A stretch of DNA of 42,336 nucleotides. It comes from Gemmatimonadales bacterium (GTDB lineage: Bacteria; Gemmatimonadota; Gemmatimonadetes; Gemmatimonadales; GWC2-71-9). Both the position numbers and the translations under genes were made by a program. The stretch lies in NCBI GenBank assembly GCA_025928645.1, contig JAICJD010000009.1, forward strand, positions 1 to 42,336. The letters are read 5' to 3'. Position 1 is the stretch's first letter. Each line of letters opens with the position of its first letter. The notes below the pieces were generated by a model. It had not been told where the DNA came from. It saw only the letters and a list, made by a program, of their open reading frames with translations, and did not search any database. Shown here one piece after another: positions 27,890-42,336 of this stretch.

Positions 27890-28936
27890 TCAGGGCTTGA
27901 ACTTCTCCGCCCCCGGAGCCGGCCTCCATGGATGGCCGGGCTCGAAGTAGCGCCAGAGCAGCGCCGACACCCGGCGCAGCAGTAGGTAGCCCTCGTTGCC
28001 CGGCGCGCCCGTCGTGTCTTCCTGTTCCTTGGTGATGAGGCAGAAGACGTAGTCGCCGGACGGCGCGTTGGCCAGCACCACCTCGGAGCGCGACTGGTCC
28101 ACCGCGCCCTGCTTCGACGCCGCCTGGACCGTGGGCGGGATCTGCGAGAGCGCCTCGCCGGTCCAGAAGCTCCGGGTCATCGTGCGGTACATCTCCTGGC
28201 TCGCCGCCGCGCTCACCACCCTGCCCTTCCGGATCTCCGTCACCAGCCGCGCCATCTCGCGCGGCGTCGTCTGTCCCCAGCCCCAGCGGTCGTAGGCGGC
28301 CTCGCGGCCGGGCGTGCGGGCGTTGACGCGGGTGACGGCGAACCCGTGGCGCTCGAGCCACGCGTTGACGGCGGTACCGGTGCCGGCGAGTCGCTGGAGA
28401 TAGAGCGACGCCGAGTTGTCGCTGAAGCTGAGGCTCAGCGTGAGCAGCCGGCTCACGGTGAGGCGCGCGGTGTCGCTCAGCCCCGCCGAAATGTCGTCCT
28501 CGGGGTACTTCGCCAGCTCGCGCGGCAGCGGCGCGGTATCGGTGAACGCGAACTCGCCGCGTGACATCGCGTCGAACACGCCGACCATGATCGGCACCTT
28601 GATCATGCTGGCGGTGGGGAAGGTATCGTCGGCGGCGACGGCCGCGGAGGCGCCGGTGCGGAGGTGCTCGACGTAGATGCCGACGCCGCCGTGGAAGCCG
28701 TGGACCGCGGCCTCGATCTCGCGCTGCAGACGCGGGTCGGGATGGGGACGGGTCTCGGGAGCAGTGGGAGACGCGGCGCCGTGAGCGCAGCCGGCCAGGA
28801 GCAGGAGGGCGAGGGCGGTGGCGCTGGTACGAATTTCATCCCGAGCGAAGCGAGGGACCTTGGCCGCCGTTCCGGAACCTTGCCGCGGTCCGGGATGTCC
28901 CACCAAGATCCCACGCTTCGCTCGGGATGACATCAT
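27890..28936 (-). CDS. Class A serine beta-lactamase, lipoprotein, with disturbed start
   Basis: Read from ATG 28936 it has 348 residues. Catalytic motifs are complete: SMIK (Ser110, Lys113), SDN (172-174), Glu212 at class A Glu166 spacing, KQG (275-277) in place of KTG, and TTPREMARL after the omega loop. The export signal RTSATALALLLLAGC begins only at about residue 36 of this reading, right after an inverted repeat (28836-28930). The codon at the natural N-terminus, 28834-28832, is ATT where ATG would be expected, so translation must start there, or upstream inside the repeat by ATGA coupling (28933-28936) to the Vgb-like gene. It could hydrolyse beta-lactams or act as a DD-peptidase-like enzyme. 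Confidence 0.85.
   Translation of the reverse strand: MMSSRAKRGILVGHPGPRQGSGTAAKVPRFARDEIRTSATALALLLLAGCAHGAASPTAPETRPHPDPRLQREIEAAVHGFHGGVGIYVEHLRTGASAAVAADDTFPTASMIKVPIMVGVFDAMSRGEFAFTDTAPLPRELAKYPEDDISAGLSDTARLTVSRLLTLSLSFSDNSASLYLQRLAGTGTAVNAWLERHGFAVTRVNARTPGREAAYDRWGWGQTTPREMARLVTEIRKGRVVSAAASQEMYRTMTRSFWTGEALSQIPPTVQAASKQGAVDQSRSEVVLANAPSGDYVFCLITKEQEDTTGAPGNEGYLLLRRVSALLWRYFEPGHPWRPAPGAEKFKP
28836..28930. repeat. REP-like inverted repeat at the 5' end of the beta-lactamase gene
   Basis: The arms 28836-28863 (TCATCCCGAGCGAAGCGAGG...) and 28903-28930 are complementary over 28 bp with two mismatches. The loop holds a short palindrome, GTTCCGGAAC (28869-28878). The GCGAGGGACCTTG segment recurs in the palindrome at 42136-42191, and the CTTCGCTCGGGRTGA end recurs at 22742-22758. 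It has no gene of its own and resembles bacterial REP/MITE-type elements. Its right edge is almost at the end of the Vgb-like gene, its left edge two nt from the beta-lactamase leader. Confidence 0.8.
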
Positions 28937-29916
28937 TGGCCGCCGAGCTCGATCTTTCCGAGCCGCCCGGTGCCGCTCAGCGCGAGCCACAGCCGATGGC
29001 GCGTGCTGTCCGTCTCCATGTGACGCACGACGGCGCCAGCGGTCGGGATCTTGACCGTCTCCATTTTCTCCGTGCGCGGGTCGAAGGCGACCATGGTGCC
29101 CGTCCGCGACTCGCAATACCAGATCCTTCCATCGGTGCCGATAGCGATGCCGTACGGGCCCGCGTTCGACGAGGGCGACACCCACTCGCGCACCTTGCCG
29201 GTGGCCGGGTCGAGCGCGCCGAGATAGCCGCGGCCGTAGTCGGTGTACCAGACGGTGCCGTTGTTGCCGACCTGCAGCCGGCGCGGCCGCGCCTCCTCGG
29301 CGGGGAGCACGAACTCCTTCATCTTCCCCGTCGCCGGATCCACCCGGCCAAGCTTGTTGGTGCCGAGCATCGCGATCCAGATGGCGCCGTCTTTCGCCGG
29401 GACGATGCCGTAGGGCACCGCGTTCGGCGTCGGCGTGGCATAGACGGTCGCCTTGCCGGTGGCCGGGTCGAGGCTTCCGTACGTGCTGTTGTTGGCGTCG
29501 GTGAACCAGACACGGCCGGCGTGATAGATGGGCGTGTGCGGGTTCCGCGCATTGCCGGGCAGCGGGAACTCGTCGATGTGCCCGGTCGCGGGATCGACTC
29601 TGCCGAGCCGCCCGGCCGCCTGCCCGGTGTACCAGACGTGGCCGTCGGGCGCGACGGTGAGCCCGTGCGGCCCCGAGCGCGGCGTCGGCGTCGGATAGTC
29701 GACCACCTTCCCGCTGGCCGGATCGAGGTGGCCGATGTAGCTGTTGCTCTGGTCGGTGAACCAGACGCTCCCGTCCTTTGCGACGGCCGGATCGTGGGGG
29801 AAGTTGTCCGGGCGCGGCAACGGGTACTCGACGATCTTCGGGGGCGCGGGGCGGGCGGGCGGAGCGGCCGCGCCGGCGATCGCCGCGAGGGCGAGCACGA
29901 TCAGTGAACGGCGCAT
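28933..29916 (-). CDS. Exported Vgb-like (streptogramin lyase-type) beta-propeller
   Basis: This 327-aa protein has a signal peptide to about residue 20 and then seven blades with the Vgb spacing: DGSVWFTD, DGHVWYTG, GRVWFTD, DGAIWIAM, NGTVWYTD and DGRIWYCE, alternating with GxLDPATGK turns. Virginiamycin B lyase has this same propeller, with active-site His and Glu contributed from the centre, and opens streptogramin rings. Export and the absence of clear Vgb-type catalytic residues in equivalent blades make antibiotic cleavage doubtful; most exported homologues are uncharacterised. It overlaps the following beta-lactamase frame by ATGA. Confidence 0.82.
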   Translation of the reverse strand: MRRSLIVLALAAIAGAAAPPARPAPPKIVEYPLPRPDNFPHDPAVAKDGSVWFTDQSNSYIGHLDPASGKVVDYPTPTPRSGPHGLTVAPDGHVWYTGQAAGRLGRVDPATGHIDEFPLPGNARNPHTPIYHAGRVWFTDANNSTYGSLDPATGKATVYATPTPNAVPYGIVPAKDGAIWIAMLGTNKLGRVDPATGKMKEFVLPAEEARPRRLQVGNNGTVWYTDYGRGYLGALDPATGKVREWVSPSSNAGPYGIAIGTDGRIWYCESRTGTMVAFDPRTEKMETVKIPTAGAVVRHMETDSTRHRLWLALSGTGRLGKIELGGQ

Positions 29917-37900: not shown

Positions 37901-40653
37901 TCCGAGACCCACTCGCCCACGAGCTCGCCGTAGCCGTCCCGGTCGCGCTGAACCGAGTGCCACTCGCGCCGCACGACGGTCCCCCGCACCTGGACGGCGG
38001 GAATGCGGGTGCCGTCCGGACCCACGGCCAGGACCGACACGGTGACCGGGGTGCCGGCGGTCCAGAAGTACCCGTCGCCCCCGGGTTTCGCCGCGATGTA
38101 GAAGTCGGCGGGGTGTACCACCGCGGAGGCCGAAGACGAGACCGTCTGGCGGTTGACGTCCACCACGGTCGCCTCGAGCGTGGCCCGCGACGGCCGGCCA
38201 CGCCGCGTGTCGGCGAGACGCACGCGAAGCGGCAGCCGGCCCGCCGCGTCGAGCGTGTCCACGCCGCTGGCCGCGACCTGGACCGCCGGCTCGGTCTCTC
38301 CGGTCTCGTCGTCCCACCAGCCCGTGTCGCCTACATAGAAGTCGTCGGTTCCGGGGATCTCGATCTCGCCGGGCCACGTGCTCTGCTGGCGCAGCGTCCA
38401 GCGCACGGCCGCGCGCCCCATCGGCGCGCCGAACAGGTAACGCGCCTCGACCGCCGCGGCGAGCGAGTCGCCCGGGTAGTACCGCCCGCTGTCGGCGGTC
38501 ACGTCCACCAGAAATTCGGGTGGCCGATATTCGGCGACCCGGTAGCCCGTGGACGCCACCTCGGTCCAGCGTCCGGCGCGGCGGAGCCGAAGGGTTACGC
38601 GGTACGCGCCGAGCGGCGCCGTGGCCGGCACCAGGAAGCGCTGGTCGGCCGTGCCGAAGGAAGACAGGGCGACGACCGTATCGCGCAGCGCCGCGGGAGG
38701 ACCGTTGTCGTCCGCCCGCGCCTCGAAGATCCAGCGGAGCGAATCGCCCGCCGCAGGCGCGGCGAGCGCGCCGAGCGGGCCGGTACGGACGATCGCCTTG
38801 GCGAAGAGCGGCTCGCCGGGGCGGTAGATGCCGCGCTCGGTGAACACCGCGGCGGCTACCGGCAGCCGGGTCGCGCCCCAGGCCTCGGAGACGTTGAAGC
38901 GCCACGGGCCGAGATCGGGGTCGTAGTCGTTGATGCCGACCAGGGCGCGGTCGGCGCCGAGCACGACGCTCACGTAGCCCTGAAAGCCCGACGGCGTCGA
39001 CTCGTCGGCTTCGCCGTTTTCCGCGTTCGGCGGCGGGGAGCGGTAGCCGGTGAGCCGGGCCAGGCCGCTCGTGTCGGTCGTCGTCCGCGCAAGGACTCTG
39101 CCCTCGGCATCGTGCAATTCGACCGAGGCGCCCGCGCGGGGGCTGCCGTCGCTCGCTCCGGTCACCCAGACGACGCCGTCCTCGCTCCCGATGCGCGCGT
39201 GCACGCCGAGGTCGGTCACCTGCAGGAGGGCGATCGGACGGTTGCGCCGGCTCAGGCTGTCGAGCCGCGGGCTCGTGACCTGCAGCGCGACGAGCGTCGG
39301 CGTGCGCGCACTTCTGTAGGCCGGAGCGGGAAGGCCCACACCGTAGATTCGCACCCGGTCGCGCGGGCCGGTCACCGGGATGCGCCGGAGGCGCGCGCCG
39401 GGCAGCAGCGCCGGCCAGAGATCGTTCCAGCTCCACTCGCTGCGGGAAAGGAATGCTGCCTCGAGCGTGTCCGGCACCGGCGCGGTCACGACCTCGAGCG
39501 TATCCACGTTCACGAACGAGAGCGCGAAGGTGCCCGGGCCCTTCCGCTCCACGACCGCTCGCCCCGATGCGTAGTTCACGGCCGGCGCGTAGCCGGTACT
39601 CACGGCCGTAGCGACGGGGTTCCCGGTGAGCGGCTGGCCGAAGCGGTCGGTGAGGCGGCGGTCGGCCACCACGGCGTAGGCGGTGCGCGGGGCGAGCCGC
39701 GCGTCCAGCGTCCACTCGGCGCGCACCTCGCTGGTGTCGCCGATGTCGAACGGGACCGCGGGGCGGATGGATAGAAAGCGGCGGAGCTCGGCGCCGCGGA
39801 CCGGCGTACTGAAGCGCACCACCAGCGGGCCGGTCGGGCAGGCGGCGCGGCTCCAGCCGCAGGTGGCGGCGGTGAGACGGAAGTCGCCGTAGGTCGCGAA
39901 GGTCCACCGTCGAGGGGCGCCATCCCGCTCGTCGAACGCGGCGGGCACGACCAGCTCGCCCGCGCAGCCGCGCGGAAGGGGCGCGCGGGGGGCAAGGCGC
40001 ACGACCCGGCGCAGCGGATCGGCCGCGCGGTCGCGGTCCCAGCCGCCCGCCTCGCGAAAGTCCCACCGGTCGTCGGCCGTGACCGCCTGCTGCGTTTCCA
40101 GGCGGAGCCGGACGACGCCCGGCGCGGAGCAGCTCTGCCCAAAATCGAGGTACGCCGAGCGCGCGACCGCCGCCGAATCCACCGGCGCGTCGACCACCAG
40201 ATCGAACCGCGCGTTCGGCGGGAGGTAGCGGGAGCCTCCATTCGGGCCCACCGGCCAGCCGGCGAGGACGCGCGGCCCGCGCACCCGGAACGAGAACCGG
40301 TACGGCCGCGAGAGGCGGCTTCCATCCATCGCGGCGAAGTCCTTCGCCACCGTGACGGTGTAGACGGTGTTCGACGCCAGCGGCGCGGCGGGCCGGAAGC
40401 GGATCGTCACGGGATCGCGCCAGTCGAGCGTGCCCGCGACGGCGGGCGCGATCGTGAGCACCTTGCGCGGGTCCACCGTCCGGTCGAGCGACCCCGCCAC
40501 CGGACGGTCGAACGTCACCGTCACCGACGCCGTGGGAGACGCCTCGCCGGACGGCGTGGCGCGAAGCACGCGGAGGTCCGTGGCCTGATCGGCCGCGACT
40601 CCGGCCGCGGCGGCGACCAGCAGGCGAAGCGCGAGCGATTGTGGGGGAAACAT
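34906..40653 (-). CDS. Bacterial alpha-2-macroglobulin (large, thioester type)
   Basis: This 1915-aa envelope protein traps attacking proteases by cleavage-triggered collapse and covalent attachment. The thioester motif is CSEQ at residues 1408-1411 in IYPYWCSEQLASAAQPL. Features include an N-terminal Ig-like domain (ATPSGEASPTASVTVTFDRP), MG domains with FTERGIYRPGEPLFAKAIVR, the alpha-2-M segment NLTTFRLMAVAVTAGDRYG, and an (alpha/alpha) toroid around the thioester. The leader lacks a lipobox Cys (LLVAAAAGVAADQ), unlike E. coli YfhM, so it may be free in the periplasm. At 1915 aa it exceeds E. coli YfhM (about 1650 aa). The Gly/Arg-rich KGKRAPGGGGGREG stretch near residue 1175 is a candidate bait or hinge. 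Confidence 0.95.
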   Translation of the reverse strand: MFPPQSLALRLLVAAAAGVAADQATDLRVLRATPSGEASPTASVTVTFDRPVAGSLDRTVDPRKVLTIAPAVAGTLDWRDPVTIRFRPAAPLASNTVYTVTVAKDFAAMDGSRLSRPYRFSFRVRGPRVLAGWPVGPNGGSRYLPPNARFDLVVDAPVDSAAVARSAYLDFGQSCSAPGVVRLRLETQQAVTADDRWDFREAGGWDRDRAADPLRRVVRLAPRAPLPRGCAGELVVPAAFDERDGAPRRWTFATYGDFRLTAATCGWSRAACPTGPLVVRFSTPVRGAELRRFLSIRPAVPFDIGDTSEVRAEWTLDARLAPRTAYAVVADRRLTDRFGQPLTGNPVATAVSTGYAPAVNYASGRAVVERKGPGTFALSFVNVDTLEVVTAPVPDTLEAAFLSRSEWSWNDLWPALLPGARLRRIPVTGPRDRVRIYGVGLPAPAYRSARTPTLVALQVTSPRLDSLSRRNRPIALLQVTDLGVHARIGSEDGVVWVTGASDGSPRAGASVELHDAEGRVLARTTTDTSGLARLTGYRSPPPNAENGEADESTPSGFQGYVSVVLGADRALVGINDYDPDLGPWRFNVSEAWGATRLPVAAAVFTERGIYRPGEPLFAKAIVRTGPLGALAAPAAGDSLRWIFEARADDNGPPAALRDTVVALSSFGTADQRFLVPATAPLGAYRVTLRLRRAGRWTEVASTGYRVAEYRPPEFLVDVTADSGRYYPGDSLAAAVEARYLFGAPMGRAAVRWTLRQQSTWPGEIEIPGTDDFYVGDTGWWDDETGETEPAVQVAASGVDTLDAAGRLPLRVRLADTRRGRPSRATLEATVVDVNRQTVSSSASAVVHPADFYIAAKPGGDGYFWTAGTPVTVSVLAVGPDGTRIPAVQVRGTVVRREWHSVQRDRDGYGELVGEWVSDTVARCALTTAAQAARCGFTPPAGGTYFVSLDARDANGRAVRTTFVRWATGKDWVPWNDESQFKMDVIADRAKYAVGDTATVLFASPFTDAEAWITVEREGLLQQRRLTIRSGTTTLKLPITEALAPNAYVSIVVARGRSAPPGPLDDPGRPTIRVGYAELRVTPERKRLAVEVTPLAREYRPGDTARVALQVRNAAGAGQRSEVTLWAVDEGVLALTGYRTPDPIDLIYQPRGLGMRLASTLTTVAPQIAEGEKGKRAPGGGGGREGADILRSRFQSTAFFLGSVTTDAAGKGEARARLPDNLTTFRLMAVAVTAGDRYGSGQSSLLVTRPLVARPALPRFLRAGDRFAAGVVVNSRDGAARQAKVTARVKGGGTELKGKRTRTAELEPGRGREVRFDFQARAADSATFRFDATSGPDADAIALSLPLEPVSHPRGYTVAGVLHDTASAELVLPADVDPERSTLSLSLGTSPVAMIQGAHLWLRIYPYWCSEQLASAAQPLIALTQSAPALGDTALARRARGELERAVATLSRRQRSDGGIGLWGADDWTTPWLTAYAGAVLLDAHTAGLAVNDSVLARLGAYLRKSLAEGRPIVSPAARWYADNAVRLSDRVMAVDYLSRAGLRDRAAENELLRLSAQLAWEDRARLALVLARDGDQAAARGLLEPLWRSVAVEGRSATLPRESRRSFYFDSPLRPAAYLLSATLAIAPAHPLVGPLVETLVAQGRGLAYVWNTQDYGTAVQALAQFAGQQQAAAARDVRVTIGGRRLLSSDRVGGARDSSVSLHGLVERGKDSLRLRVHLEAAGPGAPVFYYLTVNAVPRGAPVRPDIRGVTVERWYERYEDGRPVTEVAEGDLVRVRLRVTVPSERHFVVLDDALPAGLEAVDLSLLTSGGLPGPGAADTSAREPDDENGDGRWAYGSWDGGWWSPFDHREMRDDKVVYVATLLWPGAYTASYVARATTPGTFVRPPVHAEEMYNPAVFGESDGGVFTVKAKGK

Positions 40654-40678
40654 GCTCCAAGATAGGGGACAGTCTTCC

Positions 40679-40684
40679 TATATT
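40679..40684 (+). promoter_or_regulatory. Possible -10 element in the A2M/OmpA divergent region
   Basis: TATATT in CTTCCTATATTCGAAG is the only AT-rich run in the 94-nt gap between the divergent macroglobulin and OmpA-like genes. It is suitably placed about 64 nt before the OmpA start. No convincing -35 hexamer is seen. Confidence 0.3.
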
Positions 40685-40747
40685 CGAAGCGCCATCGTTC
40701 CAACGTGCACAGGCAGTTCCCCGCAGGTCTACCGCCGGAGAACCTAC

Positions 40748-42115
40748 ATGCGCAGCTCTCTCCTCTCGCTGCTCGCGGCCGTTGTGGCGCTGTCTCGGGC
40801 CGCCGCCCAGCAGGCGGGCACCCTGGAAGTCGGTCTCTTTCCCAACGTCAGCTACTTCGATGCCTCGCTCGGGATGACGCAGGGCCGCACCGGCCCGGGC
40901 GCTCGGCTCGGATATTTCCTGACCGATCATCTCGCGGTCGAAGGCGAAGGCGCGTGGGTGCCGGCGGAGGGCCGGTTCGGCGCCGGCGTGCGCTACATCC
41001 CCCTCCGCGCGCGCCTGGCCTACAACTTCCCCATCACCGAGCACACCGCGCTGCTGCTCGGCGCCGGGTTCGTGGAGTCGCTCTACCGCAAGGATTACCA
41101 CCTGTCCGACGCCGGCGCGACGGCGGGCGCGGGCATCCGGCTCGGCCTGGGCGGCGTGACGTCCATCCGGATCGACACCTACGTCGACTACATGCCGTCG
41201 CCGGACAACGGGGTGGGCGACAACTGGAACTGGGGCATTCAGCCGGGCCTGAGCTTCCTGTTCGGCGGGCGCGCGGCGGGCGTGCGCGACAAGGACGGCG
41301 ACGGCGTGCCGGACGCGGTGGACGAGTGCAAGGACACGGCCCCGGGCGAGAAGGTGGACGCGAAGGGCTGCACCGTGAAGGACGCCGATCAGGACGGCGT
41401 CGCCGACGACGTGGACCAGTGCAAGGACACCCCGGCCGGCGACCAGGTCGACGCCAAGGGCTGCTCGCTGCCCAAGGACGCCGACAATGACGGCGTGCTC
41501 GACAACGTCGACCAGTGCAAGGATACGCCCGCGGGCGACAAGGTGGACGCGAAGGGCTGCTCGCTGCCGAAGGACGCGGATGGCGACGGCGTGAACGACG
41601 ACGTGGACCAGTGCAAGGACACGCCGGCGGGCGATCAGGTGGATGCCAAGGGCTGCTCCCTGCCCAAGGATGCGGACGGGGACGGCGTCAACGACGACAA
41701 GGATCGCTGCCCGCACACGCCGGCCGGCGTCAAGGTGGACGAGGAGGGCTGCCAGATCCTGTTCGAGCAGGCGAAGAAGAGCCTGGTGCTCGAGGGCGTG
41801 AACTTCGCGACCGGCAAGTCGGAGCTCACGCCGGAGTCGCAGACGATCCTCGATGGGGTGGCCGAGTCGCTCGTCGCCAACGACAGCATCAAGGTCCAGG
41901 TCGGCGGCCACACCGACAACACCGGCTCCGCCGCGGTCAACCGGCGGCTGTCGGCGGCGCGCGCCGAGGCGGTGCGCCAGTATCTGATCACGAAGGGCGT
42001 CGCGGCGGACCGGCTCACCGCGAAGGGCTATGGCCCGAGCAAGCCGATCGCGTCGAACAAGACCGCCGAAGGCCGGGCGCAGAACCGGCGGGTGGAGCTG
42101 ACGAGAGTGCGGTAG
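40748..42115 (+). CDS. OmpA-family protein with five TSP3 repeats
   Basis: This 455-aa outer-membrane protein starts at ATG 40748 with CCGGAGA upstream; the leader cleaves near RAAAQ. Residues 22-175 look like an eight-strand OmpA-type barrel (LGYFLTDHLAVEGEGAW, RARLAYNFPITEHTALLLGAGF, and ending LSFLFGG). Residues 180-335 are five thrombospondin type 3 repeats (DxDxDGVxDxxDxCxxTPxG), expected to bind calcium. The C-terminal OmpA domain (340-455) contains NFATGKSELTPESQ, VGGHTDNTGS and NRRLSAARAEAVRQYL, with the Asp and Arg that bind diaminopimelate of peptidoglycan. It should link the outer membrane to the cell wall. Confidence 0.95.
   Translation: MRSSLLSLLAAVVALSRAAAQQAGTLEVGLFPNVSYFDASLGMTQGRTGPGARLGYFLTDHLAVEGEGAWVPAEGRFGAGVRYIPLRARLAYNFPITEHTALLLGAGFVESLYRKDYHLSDAGATAGAGIRLGLGGVTSIRIDTYVDYMPSPDNGVGDNWNWGIQPGLSFLFGGRAAGVRDKDGDGVPDAVDECKDTAPGEKVDAKGCTVKDADQDGVADDVDQCKDTPAGDQVDAKGCSLPKDADNDGVLDNVDQCKDTPAGDKVDAKGCSLPKDADGDGVNDDVDQCKDTPAGDQVDAKGCSLPKDADGDGVNDDKDRCPHTPAGVKVDEEGCQILFEQAKKSLVLEGVNFATGKSELTPESQTILDGVAESLVANDSIKVQVGGHTDNTGSAAVNRRLSAARAEAVRQYLITKGVAADRLTAKGYGPSKPIASNKTAEGRAQNRRVELTRVR
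41285..41760 (+). repeat. In-gene tandem repeat, 96-nt unit (TSP3 region)
   Basis: Five tandem copies of a 32-codon unit encode the calcium-binding linker of the OmpA-like protein. The three middle copies are almost identical at protein level (VDQCKDTPAGDxVDAKGCSLP) and very similar in DNA, whereas the first and last diverge. Such arrays change copy number by recombination. Confidence 0.85.
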
Positions 42116-42135: not shown

Positions 42136-42191
42136 AAGCGAGGGACCTTGCCCGGAAAGGTTCGAACCTTTCCGGGCAAGGTCCCTCGCTT
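42136..42191. repeat. Perfect 56-bp palindrome (terminator-like/REP-like)
   Basis: Two 28-nt arms meet with no spacer at TTC|GAA (42163/42164): AAGCGAGGGACCTTGCCCGG plus eight more bases, then the exact complement. It lies 20 nt after the OmpA-like stop and 39 nt before the next start. As RNA it would form a very stable hairpin and could block read-through. The AGCGAGGGACCTTG arm shares sequence with the repeat at 28836-28930. Confidence 0.85.
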
Positions 42192-42230
42192 CCTTCCCCG
42201 ATGCCGCCCGGGCATCTTCCACCGTATCCA

Positions 42231-42336
42231 ATGACCGATCCTGCTCCCGTCGATCCGGCCGCGCTCGCGCGGCTCGACCAGCTCGGCGGCCCCGGCTTCG
42301 CCCGCCGGATCATCGGCATCTTCCTGGCCGAGGGGC
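42231..42336 (+). CDS. Hpt-domain protein, N-terminus only
   Basis: The ATG at 42231 opens a frame that runs off the right edge after 35 codons. The residues ALARLDQLGGPGFARRIIGI, followed by FLAEG, match the first helices of histidine phosphotransfer (Hpt) domains, where the LxxLGG.....I...FL pattern precedes the phospho-accepting histidine, which lies beyond the window. No clear ribosome site is visible. It may relay phosphate to a receiver such as those at 6472 or 7107, but this is inference from family only. Confidence 0.65.
   Translation, partial: MTDPAPVDPAALARLDQLGGPGFARRIIGIFLAEG

Follow-up and report, generated by a model that had tools for sequence, protein, structure and literature searches.

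A perfect 56-bp palindrome in a Gemmatimonadales genome is a cut-down member of a CGTC-tagged-type REP-dimer family, and REPs of this type bracket GIY-YIG nuclease genes in many phyla

The window, i.e., the whole stretch of 42,336 nucleotides analysed here (contig JAICJD010000009.1 of a Gemmatimonadales bacterium, assembly GCA_025928645.1), contains an OmpA-family gene near its right end and a perfect palindrome that starts 20 nt past the stop codon of this gene. The features needed to describe the palindrome are the following.

28836..28930, no strand assigned: full-length, long-spacer member of the palindrome's family (sequence match, family alignment)
40652..42115, + strand: gene of the OmpA family, with TSP3 repeats, that precedes the palindrome (Pfam PF00691, 88.6 bits; PF02412)
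42136..42191, no strand assigned: perfect palindrome with zero loop; it represents the core of a short-spacer REP dimer in which each REP hairpin is without its outer 5' half (comparison with the family)
42136..42150, + strand: left REP remnant AAGCGAGGGACCTTG, i.e., the 3' part of the hairpin and the tail, with TCATCCCGAGCG missing (65 other pairs compared)
42151..42176, no strand assigned: spacer CCCGGAAAGGTTCGAACCTTTCCGGG, perfectly symmetric, in contrast to the asymmetric spacer usual in the family (CCGGGAATGGCTCGAACTCGGCCCGG) (comparison with the family)
42177..42191, - strand: right REP remnant, inverted (comparison with family pairs)
42196..42336, no strand assigned: 141 nt identical to the start of contig C35 (G000:C35:1-141, exact match), an assembly overlap inside which the downstream gene (MTDPAPVDPAALARLDQLGG...) starts

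The palindrome consists of two 28-nt arms with zero loop, 0 mismatches and 100% complementarity, exactly where an earlier sequence-only reading of this DNA had placed a perfect zero-loop 56-bp palindrome behind an OmpA-like gene. Arms longer than 8 nt occur in no other zero-loop palindrome of the window, and the expectation from base composition for one with 28-nt arms is 7e-11. Its arms are dispersed through the 3.89-Mb, 294-contig genome. The 13-mer GCGAGGGACCTTG occurs 71 times against 1 occurrence of its reversed control, and the half-unit TCYYGAGCGNAGCGARRGA 149 times against 0. The family consensus of the half-unit is TCATCCCGAGCGNAGCGAGGGAYCT, and within the fetched stretches 66 inverted pairs (TCATCCCGAGCGNAGCGAGGGAYCT, spacer, reverse complement) were found against 14 solo halves. 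The halves stand head to head, separated by 29–33 or 45–49 nt and in a single case by 58 nt; the window palindrome falls in the short-spacer class. The sequence-only reading had also claimed that the arms share sequence with a repeat at a beta-lactamase gene and probably belong to the same repeat family, and had proposed a genome-wide search for the arm sequence. Both claims are borne out: the shared 13-mer GCGAGGGACCTTG lies at 28850-28862, within the full-length copy at the start of a beta-lactamase-family ORF (27890-29185, - strand), and with 71 genomic copies the motif is far from unique. A virginiamycin B lyase-family gene (28933-29916, - strand) adjoins this ORF, with the full-length REP dimer between them.

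An intact unit of the family has the form NNTC-ATCCCGA-GCGNAGC-GAGGGAT from which a small hairpin can form, and pairs of units stand head to head with their tags outward. When a lone half-unit folds, ATCCC and GGGAT form base pairs and enclose GA/GA mismatches and the core GCGNAGC, a heptamer known as an unusually stable DNA mini-hairpin. The stem thus consists of 5 bp, the GA/GA mismatches and 2 bp, and begins with AT in most variants (ATCCC, ATCCT, ATTCC); in many copies of this genome the first stem A faces C. Among 282 REP units, for whose choice two letters of the tag and the core alone counted and pairing did not, the Watson-Crick share at stem pairs 3, 4 and 5 was 93, 95 and 90% against 51, 79 and 47% expected, with many compensatory types. 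The tags of these 282 units were TGTC (151), CGTC (48), CTTC (23) and CCTC (17). The ends in this genome most often carry CTTC (74 ends), and TGTC, CCTC and CGTC together account for 34 ends. With our own simple gene caller, 53 of the gaps that hold elements could be classified: 30 are tandem, 19 convergent and 4 divergent. Matches to Rfam were chance microRNA-hairpin matches below the gathering scores and were rejected, and a literature search with the repeat sequence string returned no match.

Di Nocera et al. (2013) have described a CGTC-tagged REP super-family that apparently lacks a dedicated transposase (PMC3733652). The present family resembles it in its short hairpins, which bear an unpaired 5' tag at one end (CGTC, with TGTC and CCTC as variants), and in the predominance of head-to-head dimers (66 pairs vs. 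14 solo halves) that are intergenic in tandem or convergent gaps (PMC3733652) and have no tyrosine transposase. The stem of the super-family measures 8–9 bp and has AT at its first two positions; the present stems, AT-first in most variants and interrupted by mismatches, are partly comparable. It differs in that the loop is GNA within GCGNAGC, that the stem carries GA/GA mismatches and that the commonest tag in this genome is CTTC rather than CGTC. The window copy itself has neither a tag nor a complete hairpin. Both ends are without the outer tag and the 5' strand of the hairpin (TCATCCCGAGCG), so neither half can fold a hairpin of its own, only the large palindrome remains, and the copy is a remnant rather than a complete member. 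The palindrome is a degenerate, cut-down, self-matched member of a CGTC-tagged-type REP-dimer family. Both outer halves were lost at the hairpin loop (between GCG and AAGC), which might be the trace of cleavage there, in this single case.

The perfect symmetry of the window copy is unusual for the family. Spacer halves have a mean identity of 49% in the family, and over 26-nt arms the short-spacer elements have a median of 7 mismatches vs. 0 in the window copy. The two arms of an element co-vary. Both had the same free loop base N in 40 of 50 pairs, where 18.3 would be expected, and 0 of 100,000 shuffles reached this value; rare variants, a one-base insertion included, are common to both arms in C40, C118, C158, C230 and C278. 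Template switching within quasi-palindromes is known to create and maintain hairpins (PMC8794818, PMC8604942). The likeness to such quasi-palindrome correction is that the arms of an inverted repeat turn identical, down to common rare variants and insertions; the difference is that these papers treat RNA hairpins and yeast coding sequences and not REPs (PMC8794818, PMC8604942). Homogenisation by template switching explains the co-variation of the arms most simply; were selection on pairing the sole cause, it would need to reproduce insertions and loop bases in the other arm. The suggestion of the sequence-only reading that the palindrome is a recently formed or corrected member of the family fits this perfect spacer symmetry and the co-varying arms.

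It is improbable that the perfection of the palindrome is an assembly or library artefact, produced by a fold-back or a template switch during sequencing. The assembly is fragmented, with contigs overlapping by 141 nt, and the window contig ends at an assembly-graph node, where an exact 141-nt contig-end overlap begins 4 nt past the palindrome. The only other perfect short-spacer copy lies at the start of contig C13 (G000:C13:1-142, L004) and belongs to a 142-nt perfect palindrome that extends into the non-repeat flanks; this fold-back is probably an assembly artefact. The flanks of the window palindrome, GAGGTA and CCTTCC, differ from each other and are each unique, which is incompatible with a simple fold-back. 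The window palindrome is thus not a simple fold-back chimera, and the explanation for C13 does not carry over to it. The overlap with C35 may point to a variant within the population, located at the palindrome or close to it.

As RNA the palindrome would form a very strong hairpin (fold z -7.85). It may be entertained, as a tentative reading, that the palindrome simply terminates transcription of the OmpA-like gene or forms its 3' hairpin, and that selection on base pairing holds it perfect. In favour are this hairpin 20 nt past the stop codon and the other, unrelated hairpins found in the same position after the orthologous gene in the relatives G003, G006 and G007. Against it, the GC-rich stem is not followed by a T-run, a terminator scan gave no match at the palindrome, and about 65 sister copies carry the same sequence, which places its origin in the repeat family; a function could still have been adopted. 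In the closest relative, G008, neither the palindrome nor a comparable hairpin was found after the orthologous gene. The downstream synteny of G008 differs as well, so that there is no clean junction and this site was rejected as an empty orthologous counterpart of the window copy's site. As a member of the REP-dimer family, the palindrome is probably either an adopted 3' mRNA hairpin of the OmpA-like transcript or a neutral relic. The palindrome itself is ordinary, and the interest of the locus is in the association behind it.

RAYT transposases are thought to drive the spread of GTAG REPs in trans, and the sequence-only reading had pointed to a RAYT/TnpA-REP-like transposase as partner of the present repeats. 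The layout is alike, with two inverted REPs and a short spacer, but the search contradicted this part of the reading. The number of RAYT/TnpA-REP genes (PF01797) was 0 in this genome and 0 in any of 10 tested genomes with at least 50 REP copies, no cognate REP-flanked PF01797 gene was found, no such repeat lies closer than about 1.5 kb to the RAYTs of relatives, and RAYTs and REPs were not associated among genomes (odds ratio 0.6, p 0.5). RAYT was rejected as the partner, and a RAYT-driven REPIN is very improbable indeed.

Another gene does occur between the REPs. Two of the inverted REP pairs found in this genome enclose a long interior. The pair on C213 encloses other repeats. A copy of a second repeat family (GTTCACCACGGAACCACGGAAGACACGGA...) is nested in this REP-bounded unit (G000:C213:3223-3640, L075), and the same family is present in the window at 696-822, 911-1043 and 2187-2228. 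The second pair is the following.

G000:C68:1581-1948 (L018, L285): 368-bp unit with inverted REPs at both ends of a 111-codon GIY-YIG gene (PF01541, 48.7 bits)

The C-terminus of the C68 protein, PSLRSG, is encoded by the right-hand REP, and in several of the GIY-YIG genes the final codons lie within a REP (PSLRSG ends). The same compact REP-GIY-YIG-REP layout was found on a contig from Verrucomicrobia. The C68 gene has the catalytic Tyr, Arg, His/Tyr, Glu and Asn of the GIY-YIG superfamily, and among 70 proteins the residues R23, H27, E60 and N79 are conserved in 100, 100, 99 and 100%. The nearest solved relatives in the PDB, UPF0213 BH0048 (1zg2) and EF2693 (1ywl), are distant; matches to RBBP4 chains cover only the C-terminal 33 residues and were rejected as probably due to chance. 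The gene resembles the single-domain proteins annotated as 'GIY-YIG nuclease family protein' in sequence family and in its length of about 100 aa, and differs from the control GIY-YIG genes of this genome (L280, L283, L284), which are not REP-flanked.

A total of 76 homologous loci was collected in three samples, i.e., from the window's phylum, from REP-selected genomes of many phyla, and from plasmid records chosen by protein similarity only. Flanks were scored for REPs within 300 nt by a generic tagged-hairpin detector, with control windows 800 nt away. Tagged REPs were present on both sides in 38 of 72 loci vs. 0 of 51 control windows (p 9e-9, for the 51 loci scorable for both), and on both sides of 0 of 18 control genes. 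The two-sided flanking holds in each of the three samples separately. Among 298 genomes of the phylum (gene cut-off at least 55 bits), at least 10 REPs were found in 15 of 36 genomes with the gene vs. 4 of 262 without it (odds ratio 46), with a p value of 2e-12 that is uncorrected for relatedness and, since these genomes are related, optimistic. In G330 the REP type that flanks the gene is the dominant REP type of the genome. The searched REP type is absent from some genomes that carry the GIY-YIG gene, and a very loose REP pattern, applied to GIY-positive, REP-poor genomes, gave no useful information and was set aside. Bracketing by such REPs is seen across many phyla for single-domain GIY-YIG genes whose catalytic set is intact, and REP-rich genomes usually carry such a gene. 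The matches in plasmid records include described hosts of the CGTC super-family (A. lipoferum, Sinorhizobium meliloti and Neisseria), and a GIY-YIG partner was not reported in the 2013 survey (PMC3733652). In the open-access journal literature searched, no paper tied GIY-YIG to REP, REPIN or dRS3 repeats.

GIY-YIG nucleases are classic homing enzymes (PMC1564403), and the gene could be a homing-type parasite that lands in REP dimers while the REPs spread by another route. The insertion is polymorphic in Sphingobium, where TomTYG46 has the gene and the same, gene-free site of TomTYG74 holds a lone REP-like palindrome, which is in keeping with such a parasite. Three REP-bearing genomes, moreover, have no clear member of the GIY-YIG subfamily by profile search (G142 with 76 REPs, G253 with 29 and G006 with 12). 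In Azospirillum lipoferum 4B, by comparison, the sufB-sufC gap contains a REP pair, a GIY-YIG gene and a further REP pair, and this whole block is absent in four other Azospirillum, so that it arrived or left as a unit. The gene ends inside the REP (PSLRSG) also suggest a co-evolved unit, and on this evidence the homing parasite is rather unlikely.

The favoured explanation, which is reasonably likely as a whole, combines a degenerate CGTC-type REP dimer, nuclease-driven spread of REPs, symmetry through template switching, and persistence as a hairpin or relic. The REP-linked GIY-YIG nuclease would recognise the REP hairpin and would drive the spread of REP dimers in trans, as RAYT for GTAG REPs. 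The window copy would have lost both outer hairpin halves and, for this reason, would probably no longer be a substrate of the nuclease. Template switching inside the quasi-palindrome would have given its inner 28 nt their perfect symmetry, and the copy would survive either as a neutral relic or as a strong hairpin at the 3' end of the OmpA-like transcript. Against this explanation count the three genomes with REPs and no clear member of the subfamily (G142, G253, G006), the genomes that have the gene and none of the REP type searched for, the prevalence of CTTC over CGTC among the tags of this genome, the missing T-run, and the missing hairpin after the orthologous gene in G008. The association of GIY-YIG genes with REPs is observed, and it is from this association that we infer mobilisation. 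There is perhaps an even chance that these loci represent a class of minimal mobile elements across bacteria, with a nuclease gene of about 100 aa between inverted CGTC-type REPs and with REP dimers, those of Neisseria, rhizobia and azospirilla included, as miniature non-autonomous copies moved in trans. Such elements would resemble the REPIN/RAYT system (GTAG REPs, TnpA-REP, IS200/IS605-related) in their non-autonomous inverted REP pairs and REP-bracketed gene, and would differ in the tag and in that the bracketed gene encodes a GIY-YIG nuclease and not an HUH tyrosine transposase. The bracketed, co-occurring nuclease is a concrete, testable candidate enzyme for the CGTC super-family, and if it is the right one, REP-type repeats have formed links with two enzymes that are unrelated to one another. 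This genome (G000:C250:28396-28665, L282) and G002 (G002:C37, L313) also contain a second type of GIY-YIG, associated with a REP variant of its own (GTCACCCTGAGCGCAGCGAAGGGGCC), which suggests enzyme-REP pairs.
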